A stretch of DNA of 64,000 nucleotides from an uncultured Schlesneria sp. (lineage in GTDB: Bacteria > Planctomycetota > Planctomycetia > Planctomycetales > Planctomycetaceae). Each line of letters opens with the position of its first letter. Within the stretch, counting starts at the first letter, position 1. Positions 44 to 19,662 of this stretch are shown here, piece after piece. The stretch covers positions 1 to 64,000 of the forward strand of contig CAIVEI010000056.1 in the NCBI GenBank assembly GCA_903904835.1. Reading direction: 5' to 3'. The notes beneath the pieces are model-generated. The model ran no database searches. It was not told the DNA's origin and was given only the letters and a program-made list of their open reading frames with translations. The translations under genes were made by a program, and so were the position numbers.

Positions 44-117
44 GGGGTCGTAGCTCAATTGGTTAGAGTACCGGACTGTCGATCCGGTGGTTGCGGGTTC
101 GAGCCCCGTCGACCTCG
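44..117 (+). tRNA. tRNA-Asp (GTC), integration target
   Basis: The sequence folds as a complete cloverleaf: a 7 bp acceptor stem (44-50 with 110-116, one G-U pair), a D arm from 51, an anticodon stem 71-75/83-87 with a 7-base loop carrying GTC at 78-80, a T arm with TTCGAGC, and G117 as discriminator. CCA is not encoded. The 3' part from position 72 is an exact copy of the att core repeated at 19615-19662, so the gene was rebuilt by the integrated element and stays functional. The antisense strand is the last coding stretch of the integrase, and the TTA in the D loop supplies that gene's stop codon. Confidence 0.97.
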
Positions 118-1835
118 CTGAAATTAGCCTTGTTCACAATCACTGTGGACAAGGCTTTTTGCTTTGATTTATGGGGTTTTTCATCTGTCGTCCGTATCGC
201 CAGCCTGACATCAGTATCCGTTGATGCTGGGGCAGGAAGTGACACATTTTGCCTCTGTTCGCCAACTTTTGGTGCAACGGTTGGTGCAACGGCGCTGGCA
301 GAATGTCTTTTGTCTGGCATCGAGTCTTGATGATCCGTTCCCGTTGCTCGCATCCGGTTCTGTTCAATCGCGGGTGAGTTGTCGAGATTCAACGACGGCA
401 GCGAATCCAACGCCCCTTGAACGTCGAGCAGTTTCGGATCGGTGTAGACGTTCATCGTCAGGTCGATCTTACTGTGACGCATCGCGGCTTGTGCTGTTCG
501 TGGTGCAACGCCCCCTTTACTGAGCAGCGTTCCAAACGAATGTCGCAGGGCGTGAACGTCGATCGTTCGGCCTCGGTTGTCTTTTTTCTCGATCCCGGCG
601 GCGATCAGATCCCGGTTCAGAATCTTGATCAACGCATCGGGAACCGCAAACAACGGTCTTTTGGCGTCAGACTTCCCCGCGTCTTTTCGAATTTTGATCG
701 ATTCGCCGTTCGACCGTTCCGAAATCCACAGCTTCAAGTCGTTCGCCAGATCCGTTCTCAACGGAATTGTTGAGCCTTGCCGGTTTTTCTCATCCGGCGC
801 GTCCAATTCGATGAACGGCATCAACCCGACGAGTTCCAGTTGTGACACTGTAATTGAAGCCAGTTCCCCTTTTCGCAATCCGGTAAGAACCAATGTCTTG
901 TAGATCAACGCCCGTTCGCGTCCAACCTGTTCCAGTTCAGCGATCAGATCGGGATTCTCGGCGAGTCGTTTCCGCGCTCGTTCGACAGCTTCGTGAAGCG
1001 TTTCGAGCGTCAGCGGCTTGTAGGTCCAGTTCGATCGTTTACGACGTTTGCCGGTCACTTCGGTCTCACTGGCATCCACTGAAAGCGTTTCTCGACCGAA
1101 TTCAGCCAGCGGTCGAAGTCGTGCCACTTGAAGCAGATTGACCAACTCGGCTTCGGTCATCGCCCGCCGTTGTCGTCGTCGGTCACAGTTTTCGTCAGCT
1201 TTGGAGATTCGGGCCAGGGGATTAACGGACAGTCGCCCGGACTGAGCACACCACTTACAGAAACCCCGAACGGCTTGCAGGTAACTGTTTCGAGTTCTCG
1301 CCCCCATGTTTGCGGCGAGCCGACCCGCCAACCAGCCTTCGACGGTATCGTGGTGAATGTCTCTCAGCGTTTCACATTCGCAATCGTTGAAAACTTGCTC
1401 GGCAAGCCGCTTTGTATCGGCGACGTGTCGCGCAGACGTTCCTTTACTCCGCAGATGATTCATGTACGCAGCGAAATGATCAGCGAGCGGCGTTTGCTGA
1501 TGATCGGCGGTCGCGGCTTCGGCGGATGAAATGACTTCGCTTTTCACCAGTTCGGCCCGGCGTTCCAGTTTGCCGAGTACCGAACGAGCGGCGTCTTCAT
1601 CGCGGCATCCGGTCGAGGTTTCGCAAATGTACCCCGAGCCATCTCGATACTTGGCGATGTAGGTCGCGGATTCTTCGACGATCCGTAACGAACCATCCTT
1701 GCCGGTCGTCACCTTGGCGGTCTTCGTTCGACCCTTTGGCGGTTTCCAGCGTGCGAACTGTTCCCCTCGCTTCGTGAAGAGTTCCGCGCCGGGGGGAAGC
1801 GGTCGAGTTACGGTTTTCTTGAAGACGGAACCCAT
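63..1835 (-). CDS. int: tyrosine recombinase (integrase), integrated form
   Basis: A 590-residue site-specific integrase. Residues about 115-215 form a SAM-like core-binding domain and about 225-475 the catalytic domain. The catalytic residues are visible: R321 in TGLRKGEL, K350, H428 and R431 in HALRH, H454 in MRHSK, and the nucleophile Y464 in NVYTDP. The ATG at 1835 follows GAAGGA at suitable spacing. After the catalytic domain comes an Ala/Pro/Thr-rich tail with VAPTVAP (about 516-522), and then the antisense of tRNA-Asp, which ends at a TAA formed by the tRNA D arm. The last two residues (VL) and the stop therefore come from the host. In the excised circle the same frame would run through the core into 19614-19369 and give 669 residues. 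The gene lies directly beside the tRNA, as expected for int. Confidence 0.96.
   Translation of the reverse strand: MGSVFKKTVTRPLPPGAELFTKRGEQFARWKPPKGRTKTAKVTTGKDGSLRIVEESATYIAKYRDGSGYICETSTGCRDEDAARSVLGKLERRAELVKSEVISSAEAATADHQQTPLADHFAAYMNHLRSKGTSARHVADTKRLAEQVFNDCECETLRDIHHDTVEGWLAGRLAANMGARTRNSYLQAVRGFCKWCAQSGRLSVNPLARISKADENCDRRRQRRAMTEAELVNLLQVARLRPLAEFGRETLSVDASETEVTGKRRKRSNWTYKPLTLETLHEAVERARKRLAENPDLIAELEQVGRERALIYKTLVLTGLRKGELASITVSQLELVGLMPFIELDAPDEKNRQGSTIPLRTDLANDLKLWISERSNGESIKIRKDAGKSDAKRPLFAVPDALIKILNRDLIAAGIEKKDNRGRTIDVHALRHSFGTLLSKGGVAPRTAQAAMRHSKIDLTMNVYTDPKLLDVQGALDSLPSLNLDNSPAIEQNRMRATGTDHQDSMPDKRHSASAVAPTVAPKVGEQRQNVSLPAPASTDTDVRLAIRTTDEKPHKSKQKALSTVIVNKANFSEVDGARTRNHRIDSPVL
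72..119 (+). repeat. attL core, 48 bp direct repeat
   Basis: This block is identical to 19615-19662. It begins in the anticodon stem of tRNA-Asp and runs two bases past the discriminator. Read on the minus strand in the integrase frame it encodes SEVDGARTRNHRIDSP, and the copy at the right end is read in the same frame. Confidence 0.95.
126..160 (+). terminator. terminator behind tRNA-Asp, supplied by the element
   Basis: An 8 bp stem (AGCCTTGT with ACAAGGCT) with further inner pairing is followed by a T run. It closely resembles the hairpin at 19673-19709, which should be the tRNA's original terminator now displaced to the far side of the element. The element thus restores a terminator as well as the tRNA 3' end, although this DNA also codes for the integrase tail on the other strand. 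Confidence 0.8.
269..290 (+). repeat. tandem TTGGTGCAAC, candidate integrase arm site (left)
   Basis: Two copies of TTGGTGCAAC start at 269 and 281, 12 bp apart. The same pair, with one or two base changes and the same 12 bp spacing and orientation, lies at 19536-19557 on the other side of the core. On the minus strand both pairs encode VAPTVAP. A role as arm-type integrase binding sites is inference. Confidence 0.45.
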
Positions 1836-1885
1836 GTCAATTTTCCTTCACTTCACCACCGACTCGGATTCGTCGGCGAGTCACA

Positions 1886-1919
1886 GACAAACGGGTCGGT
1901 GAGTTTCGACCCGTTTGTC
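1886..1919. promoter_or_regulatory. perfect 13 bp inverted repeat before int
   Basis: Arms 1886-1898 and 1907-1919 are perfect complements around an 8-base loop. The hairpin lies between the end of the XRE gene (1942) and the integrase start (1835). There is no clear T run downstream on the minus strand, so it could be a weak terminator, an mRNA structure in the integrase leader, or an operator for the neighbouring XRE protein. Confidence 0.5.
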
Positions 1920-1941
1920 CAATTCAGAAACCCTCACACGT

Positions 1942-18495: not shown

Positions 18496-18526
18496 GTGAA
18501 ATCCGAGTTTCAATTCGTCTGTAAGA

Positions 18527-19126
18527 CTATGCGGCAGTTCGTGCCCAGCGTCGTCGGTAAGCGCTTATCGCTAAGCTGAGTCCACCCAGACCCAACAGAG
18601 CGAACGAAGATGGCTCGGGGACGGCGGACGGCTCCGCCTTTGCGATTACCCACGGGTTGCCACCAAGATCGGAAATCGACGGATGCGTATCCCACAAAGC
18701 GCCGACGGTGGGCGTGACCGAAGCGTAGAGGGTACCACTTGGGGCATTAGAATAAAACAGCGGCGTTCTAATGCCTATTTGAAAGTAGAAATCATTCGTA
18801 TTCGATCCCGGCTGTGCCAGCGTGATTTCATTTGGCGTAACCAAAAGACCATTTCCGATAACATGCACCGATGTGTTGGCCATTGTCGAGTCATACGAGT
18901 AGGTCGTCGGCATAGCGGTCCCGTCCGTCATGCTGATGGACCAAGCGATGATGTCCGATTCATTCAATACACCACTGTTGATGTCGGTGGTGATCGTACC
19001 AGCGAGTGAGTAGTTGTTTTGTTGAGAGGGGTAGTTTTGGATGTGGTAAATGAAATTGGCCGATGCATTTCCCGCAGTAGCGAAAAGCAGAGCTAGCGCA
19101 CTAGAGAATCGAATCAATTGTCTCAT
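18527..19126 (-). CDS. PEP-CTERM exported protein on the element
   Basis: A 199-residue secreted protein. It has a signal peptide (MRQLIRFSSALALLFATAG, cleavage after NASA near residue 23), a Ser/Thr/Asn-rich beta domain, and a C-terminal PEP-CTERM sorting signal: VPEPSSFALLGLGGLSLA and a final basic cluster YRRR. Such tails are processed by an exosortase and anchor or release proteins at the cell surface. The ATG at 19126 is chosen because GGGGA lies just upstream; an ATG at 19144 would add six residues. It lies inside the att boundaries with its own terminator, so it is cargo. Its function beyond export is unknown. Confidence 0.85.
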   Translation of the reverse strand: MRQLIRFSSALALLFATAGNASANFIYHIQNYPSQQNNYSLAGTITTDINSGVLNESDIIAWSISMTDGTAMPTTYSYDSTMANTSVHVIGNGLLVTPNEITLAQPGSNTNDFYFQIGIRTPLFYSNAPSGTLYASVTPTVGALWDTHPSISDLGGNPWVIAKAEPSAVPEPSSFALLGLGGLSLAISAYRRRWARTAA

Positions 19127-19368
19127 TATTTCCCCGTTGTTCATAAGAAATGTCCATCAACCGTTGATATCAACCACGTTCGTTTCGTCACGAACAGGAT
19201 ACGCTATCGAGTTAAACAAAAGAACAATGAAGTGGTGGAAAATCGATTGAATTCAATCGTGATTGTCGTTCGCTCTGAAACGGCTGTTTAAAATGTCGCA
19301 GTCAAAAATTCCAATTTGTAGAACCCATACGTGCGGCGTCTATTGCGAAGCGTCGGTCAAATCTTGAT

Positions 19369-19614
19369 TCAGTTCAACAGCCGCCTCACGGCTTCAGCCC
19401 GTTCCTCATCCGACAGCGGCGACAAGGCGAGCATCTTGAGAGCGGCGGCGAAGTCCGTCTCGACCGGATCGGCGATCTGTTCGGGCGACACATTCACCAT
19501 TCGAATCGACGGGTTTTCGTCAGTTTTCGCGTTCGCTGGTGCAACCGTTGGTGCAACGACATTTGTCTGTTGCCGTAACTGCTTATCTGATAGTCCACTA
19601 GAACTCTGATCTTG
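19369..19614 (-). other. integrase C-terminal coding part, separated by integration
   Basis: From the att core leftward on the minus strand, an open frame continues SEVDGARTRNHRIDSP with 81 more residues (QDQSSSGLSDKQL onward, ending EERAEAVRRLLN) to a TGA at 19369. No start codon with a ribosome site precedes it here, so it should be silent in this state. In the circular element the core joins it in frame to the integrase, giving 669 residues. It has VAPTVAP, as in the other integrase half, and a helical end (FAAALKMLALSPLSDEERAE), so it looks like real protein and not chance. Confidence 0.75.
19536..19557 (+). repeat. tandem TGGTGCAAC, candidate integrase arm site (right)
   Basis: CTGGTGCAAC at 19536 and TTGGTGCAAC at 19548 are 12 bp apart, matching the pair at 269-290 in sequence, spacing and orientation. 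They lie 58 bp from the right core; the left pair lies 150 bp from the left core. Confidence 0.45.
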
Positions 19615-19662
19615 CGGACTGTCGATCCGGTGGTTGCGGGTTCGAGCCCCGTCGACCTCGCT
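19615..19662 (+). repeat. attR core, 48 bp direct repeat
   Basis: This is an exact copy of 72-119, a tRNA-Asp fragment lacking the 5' half. It marks the right junction of the element. Confidence 0.95.

Follow-up and report, generated by a model that had tools for sequence, protein, structure and literature searches.

Planctomycete genomic islands with a predicted attachment site inside the integrase gene and two alternative integrase 3' ends

Several mobile elements carry their attachment site (att) within one of their own genes. In phage Mx8 (int/intX), attP lies inside the tyrosine integrase gene, and integration replaces the C terminus of the protein while the catalytic residues are kept. 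In one account, a 112-residue C terminus gives way to one of 13 residues, and the integrase so modified shows less activity (PMC4701971); in another, the integrated form is not inactivated but altered in specificity (PMC6070905). SSV-type (suicidal) archaeal integrases also have attP inside the gene, and integration breaks it into two parts, int(N) and int(C), which are reported to be inactive (PMC8371274). Streptococcal integrative and conjugative elements (ICEs) in rumA are described as having an excised form whose integrase has another length and C terminus (PMC4701971), and in an integrative and mobilizable element (IME) targeting snf2 the recombination site lies inside the gene for the integrase (PMC5357655). 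In mycobacteriophage BPs it is the repressor gene that contains attP, so integration shortens the repressor, and the extra piece of the longer protein holds a proteolysis tag (PMC4557955). The Islander paper allows for integrases extending across attP and names Mx8 and SSV (PMC4383910). Here we analyzed a 64,000-nucleotide stretch (the window; contig CAIVEI010000056.1, positions 1 to 64,000) of an uncultured Schlesneria sp., in which a genomic island at a tRNA-Asp gene carries its att core inside the reading frame of its tyrosine integrase (gene int, protein Int). A first reading of this stretch, hereafter the original prediction, had proposed that the integrase gene is split by its own integration.

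The element is bounded by an exact direct repeat of 48 bp, the att core, at 72-119 and 19615-19662. The int-side copy overlaps the target gene, tRNA-Asp(gtc) (44-118, plus strand; ARAGORN), which is left whole by the element's core, and the far copy (attR) holds the displaced 3' half of the tRNA. In the integrated state int (63-1835, minus strand) starts at 1835, crosses the core in antisense and ends two codons farther on at a stop drawn from the 5' part of the tRNA gene, giving a protein of 590 residues with the antisense reading of the core, SEVDGARTRNHRIDSP, as its C terminus. The far core is read in the same frame and continues into element DNA for 81 codons to a stop at 19369-19371; this tail (19369-19614, minus strand, 81 codons plus stop) extends int in the circular form. 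When the ends are joined as in a circle, a single frame of 669 codons results, compared to 590 residues in the integrated form, and the remaining two frames across the junction run into stops before the core. The frame relations in the original prediction, namely the core in one minus-strand frame at both ends, the 590-residue Int ending two codons past it and the 81-codon continuation giving a joined frame of 669 codons, were thus all confirmed. The window Int is a tyrosine recombinase by its match to PF00589 (Phage_integrase, 2.9e-15), and the 590-residue form keeps the YTDP motif and the catalytic domain. Three of four congeneric regions (G001, G002 and G005) show this tRNA-Asp with the genes of the window's right flank 0.2-2.5 kb behind it and no island, from which it follows that the stretch between the cores is an insertion; in the fourth (G003) the tRNA is present and the DNA behind it is unrelated. 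The element is best explained as an integrative genomic island whose tyrosine integrase is of lambda type, with a predicted attP inside the 3' part of int.

Among the described systems, the locus most resembles Mx8, which the original prediction had named as a precedent, and the published replacement of 112 residues by 13 (PMC4701971) bears this out. Both have attP inside a tyrosine integrase gene whose C terminus is replaced on integration with the catalytic residues kept, and Mx8 Int (L267, 5208-6809) likewise reads through an apparent antisense tRNA T-arm and acceptor end, followed by ~108 residues. Since the two integrases have no significant pairwise similarity (best BLASTP E value 0.02; no Mx8 match at 1e-5 among phages), the same principle has perhaps arisen separately. 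Mx8 is one phage, whereas the island described here belongs to a planctomycete family with ten tRNA isotypes as targets, a conserved tail motif and arm-type repeats. SSV-type integrases share the attP inside the gene, but here the catalytic gene stays whole and only a C-terminal tail is exchanged, so the window integrase is not of SSV type. The streptococcal ICEs and IMEs share an att site inside the integrase gene, but their enzymes are serine recombinases directed to rumA or snf2 with no tRNA core. BPs shares the shortening of a protein by integration through attP in its gene; there the gene encodes a tagged repressor. Literature searches, with subscription papers mostly outside their reach, found among the records listed no planctomycete case of a switch at an att site internal to int.

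The tail was followed in relatives of the window element. A first set of 51 regions was oriented (int found in 50) and later a set of 87 loci, overlapping with the first, and each was checked for a second tRNA core. After removal of duplicates (L172, L179, L180 and L212), 29 distinct elements with both cores were obtained, the window included, with 0-7 mismatches between core copies. A second right end of G406_104 was left out of the 29; repeats in G014, G001, L236 and L249 were judged not to be cores, though G014 and G001 do carry tail homologues; and the remaining loci showed no second core in the DNA retrieved, because the contig ended, the element outran the retrieved stretch or the site had decayed. 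In 27 of the 29 elements the int frame runs into the core. In 26 of these 27 an in-frame tail of 55-106 residues follows at the far end, compared to 3 of 54 control frames open for at least 50 codons (Fisher p 8e-17). Because the elements share descent this p value is only nominal, and the number of target changes is a better measure of independence. Four elements (G279_11, G406_104, G344 and G331) had been fetched on a known tail match on the contig and the other 25 for their integrase; without these four, the count is 22 of 23 compared to 3 of 46 control frames. A chance frame match is ruled out by these counts, and the frame relation claimed for the window is in this respect a property of its family. 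One member was found in a named isolate, Rubripirellula obstinata CECT 8602 (L190, the same as G402), where the core copies lie ~6 kb apart.

The joined gene also exists in nature. Locus L235 (JAGQOZ010000287.1) contains an unbroken open reading frame of 611 residues running from ATG through an antisense tRNA-Asp-like core into the tail. A second core, a whole tRNA and an end overlap were all looked for on this contig and none was found; L235 could represent either a circle or the junction of a tandem. L214 is likewise arranged as int, core and tail, and contains an early stop; its tail is shortened. Elements are arrayed in tandem in G406:C104 (L128), where a second int reads with its 3' part via the core into the tail of the first element, and int-end, core and tail frames are likewise joined in G279:C11, G009:C94 and G086:C155. 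The original prediction would have been refuted if homologous full-length integrases never carried this tail, and the outcome supports it: the tail is present in frame at the far end in 26 of 27, its end is under purifying selection as described below, and in L235 the gene is unbroken. As a separate observation, elements are in tandem or stacked at a single tRNA gene in L128 (G406:C104) and L126 (G279:C11), G406 having several far cores and tails in a row, and remnants of older insertions seem to accumulate at the tRNA site in both.

The ratio of nonsynonymous to synonymous substitution (omega) was measured on ten hand-picked, non-overlapping pairs of tails, some of them saturated at synonymous sites. 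Over the last ~33 codons, pooled omega was 0.24 in the int frame and 1.07 and 2.12 in the other two frames. This low value, seen in the int frame alone, implies that the motif is kept as protein, though it lies outside int when the element is integrated. Nearer relatives share the motif DFAAALxMIAxLPLSDxEKAEAVRRLL, which is looser in others; in the window the conserved end (ETDFAAALKMLALSPLSDEERAEAVRRLLN; 19372-19461, minus strand) is predicted to form a two-helix hairpin, and the window tail modelled alone gave two helices (predicted local distance difference test, pLDDT, 76-89). In the AlphaFold model of the L235 protein, an N-terminal beta-rich part and helical and catalytic parts are followed by a disordered stretch (477-568) and helices at 570-610. 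We make no docking claim for the tail, because these helices reach only pLDDT 60-76 and stand behind a disordered linker. Foldseek with the L235 model returned Brujita Int, an archaeal Xer and lambda Int as top matches. Pfam assigned no known domain to the tail beyond one weak DUF3775 match in 1 of 13 tails, and the window tail had no PHROG match and no PDB sequence at 0.1.

The same DNA appears to hold other functions. Each arm contains two TGGTGCAAC-like motifs 12 bp apart. In the window the int-side pair (270-290, plus strand), the putative P' arm-type site, codes for VAPTVAP inside int, and the same tandem motif at 19537-19557 (plus strand), the putative P arm-type site, codes for VAPTVAP inside the tail. 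In a consensus scan of the 29 elements, the far-side pair lies at a distance of 49-61 bp from the core in 25 elements, whereas the int-side pair comes 113-130 bp past the core in 14 and 149-152 bp past it in 12, with 3 outliers; scores ranged from 9 to 18 of 18, and low scorers (L203, G122b and G133) may be chance picks. The motif varies between elements, yet the left and right copies agree within an element: among the 25 of 29 elements that scored at least 11 on both arms, left/right identity was 0.964 compared to 0.799 when shuffled, a value reached in 0 of 20000 shuffles. The repeats read VAPxVAP in int and are in another frame in several tails, so they are conserved as DNA. From their arrangement, the paired repeats look like arm-type sites. 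The presence of VAPTVAP in both int and the window tail had raised the suspicion that the tail is a fragment of a second integrase; this was ruled out, since VAPTVAP is the arm-type DNA repeat, which other tails read in a different frame or as different residues (CTTGCT, VRPSVRP). In 23 of 29 elements the core is followed, within the element, by a hairpin with a T-run that resembles a terminator, so the tRNA would retain a terminator after insertion in most cases; in the window this element-borne hairpin (126-156, plus strand) is coding sequence inside int. On the host side of the far core such a hairpin is found in 12 of 29, and in the window at 19673-19703 (plus strand).

The best-matching relatives of this integrase are planctomycete, and its family is directed to many tRNA genes. 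The best 80 of 238 confirmed integrase relatives from the genome collection all bear planctomycete names. With the window's genome counted in each case, 92 of 397 genomes drawn from the class match the integrase at E 1e-30 or lower and 33 of 397 match the tail at 0.01 or lower, though the weakest tail matches are doubtful; a tail match was found in 12 of 149 relatives. Ten tRNA isotypes are targeted (Asp, Pro, Val, Ala, Cys, Arg, Gly, Met, His and Thr), as labelled by ARAGORN except in G015, G331 and G402, where the isotype was read off the core sequence. Parsimony on an integrase tree of 27 rows, built by a quick method with 5 of 24 inner branches open, requires at least 16 changes of isotype, with the frame kept. 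No close relatives were found on plasmids, and among phages only three Lactobacillus integrases matched, at 30% identity. In viral contigs, the window Int as query gave no match, the tail alignment gave 25 pattern matches of which none was confirmed, and the Int alignment gave seven matches with the tail in none of their seven C termini. As an aside, antisense-tRNA peptides such as VGMTGFEPATSTSRT or VERKGVEPSTSALRTQRSPN terminate many planctomycete integrases (loci L172-L241), and such endings could serve to find integrated, tail-less forms in databases.

Read together, the sequences show two alternative 3' ends for one int gene, set by the state of the DNA, and selection on the end of the long form. 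Long Int would comprise the catalytic domain, a linker, the antisense tRNA core and the helical tail, and in short Int host-encoded residues replace the tail. We consider it probable that the tail-bearing long Int drives integration, that integration removes the tail and stabilizes the element, and that an excisionase-like protein or Int acting in trans reverses this. Long Int, the integration-competent or more active form, would be made by a circle that has just arrived or been excised, or from a tandem junction. Recombination would then strip the tail from the gene, leaving an integrated copy that makes a less active or differently directed Int; this short Int would stabilize the element until an excisionase or the Int of another copy acts, and excision would restore the long gene. 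The candidate for the excisionase is an HTH_17/AlpA protein (14340-14576, minus strand; Pfam 1.7e-8, PHROG excisionase and regulator 1e-8), a possible recombination directionality factor. As integration and excision swap the int 3' end, the state of the element's DNA would be written into its own enzyme. At the level of the phylum, we give about even chances to the view that Planctomycetota hold widespread self-rewriting integrases, in which a helical module present only in circular or tandem forms sets direction and the 3' third of int, being at once protein, arm-type sites, tRNA terminator and half a tRNA, is re-cut in frame for each new tRNA; on that view, the re-cutting in frame lets the switch survive retargeting. 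That relatives directed to many different tRNA genes have kept the design points to a one-way switch built into the element. Given the family's many natural members and tRNA targets and its selected tail, control of direction by DNA state alone becomes a testable question, as does how integrases change target yet keep a reading frame through the new one.

Several observations weigh against this account. First, int stops before the core in 2 of 29 elements (G122a and G133), and the result for two others depends on the core copy chosen: the frame of G247_1 closes if the far copy is used and stays open if the int-side copy is, and G365 is the reverse, though with either copy the count is again 26 of 27 open. 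Second, the design is not universal, because more distant relatives, such as L240, L244 and, from viral contigs, the integrases L247-L251, stop shortly behind the catalytic region. Third, pooled omega was 0.52 over the whole tail and 0.85 before the motif, and whole-tail values of single pairs, among those listed, ranged from 0.14 to 0.95. Fourth, the candidate excisionase gene is not adjacent to int. Lastly, the roles given to long and short Int are borrowed from Mx8, a system without significant sequence similarity, for which the two accounts differ in wording, less active (PMC4701971) as opposed to altered in specificity (PMC6070905).

The tail could also lack a directional role and aid synapsis or DNA bending in any reaction, its loss being the tolerated cost of having attP in int. 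Short Int does keep the whole catalytic domain, and activity and direction are not separated by sequence, but a mere cost could be escaped by shifting the core past the stop, and by parsimony the tail was retained through 16 retargetings; we regard this explanation as unlikely. In another explanation the tail is a C-terminal degradation tag, making long Int short-lived in the circle and short Int stable once integrated. Phage BPs, with its integration-dependent immunity, offers the model, since its longer viral repressor has a proteolysis tag at the C terminus and its integrase too has a proteolysis signal there (PMC4557955). The window is unlike BPs in having its core in int, and tails of the family have an internal helical motif rather than a terminus in common: no shared tag-like terminus was found among the tail ends, none of the 26 listed tails ends in two alanines, and a single terminal alanine occurs in G395 and in the 27th (G247_1), which makes a tag improbable. 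The tail might instead be a separate small protein, a regulator or excision factor made at the far end of the integrated element, with the frame match a by-product. In 13 of 27 elements an in-frame ATG does lie ahead of the last 33 codons, within the stretch that begins with the core, and 24 of 27 have some ATG, GTG or TTG there, but ATG is absent in 14 of 27, the match of 26 of 27 tails to the int frame would go unexplained and the unbroken gene of L235 joins int, core and tail; we hold this to be highly improbable. That the far end is kept only as attachment-site DNA (the P arm) with an incidental open frame would fit the arm-type repeats at near-fixed distance in frames that differ between elements, but the selected motif lies farther from the core than these repeats and selection acts in the int frame alone (omega 0.24 compared to 1.07 and 2.12), which largely refutes this idea and leaves it the barest likelihood.

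The target site may also record a capture of host DNA. Codons ~555 to 590 of the window int match, at 89-97%, the tRNA and terminator as they stand in native DNA at the three empty congeneric sites, suggesting that the element captured host DNA on taking this target. Separately, the int-side tRNA and terminator (window ~1-164) align to these empty sites at 94-96% and the far-side copy (19615-19707 or slightly more) at 89-90%, the compared stretches being unequal in length; the int-side identity is the higher, as if the tRNA end and terminator had been captured from a congener. The stretch begins at a contig edge (G000:C56), and its first 141 bases are the exact end of contig G000:C38, like an assembly-graph overlap, with end points that do not fit an att junction.

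From its gene content the element is a putative defence-type island, with predicted defence genes at 2788-10770 of the window. It encodes a type I restriction-modification set (HsdR, HsdS and HsdM), a GmrSD protein and an HNH protein (Pfam, PADLOC and PHROGs), along with DUF669 and HTH_17/AlpA proteins (Pfam). Upstream of int lies an HTH_26 (Cro/C1-type) regulator (1942-2685, minus strand; Pfam), and behind the defence genes come a DnaB-like helicase at 11428-12405 and, at 12369-13352, a primase-like protein that scored below the Pfam cut-off. Among the 17 distinct element proteins scanned with Pfam, a subset of the reading frames, none matched a capsid, terminase or relaxase family. At the limits used, a protein of 725 residues (14692-16869) matched nothing in Pfam, PADLOC or PHROG, and a PEP-CTERM protein is encoded at 18527-19144, near the far end of the island.

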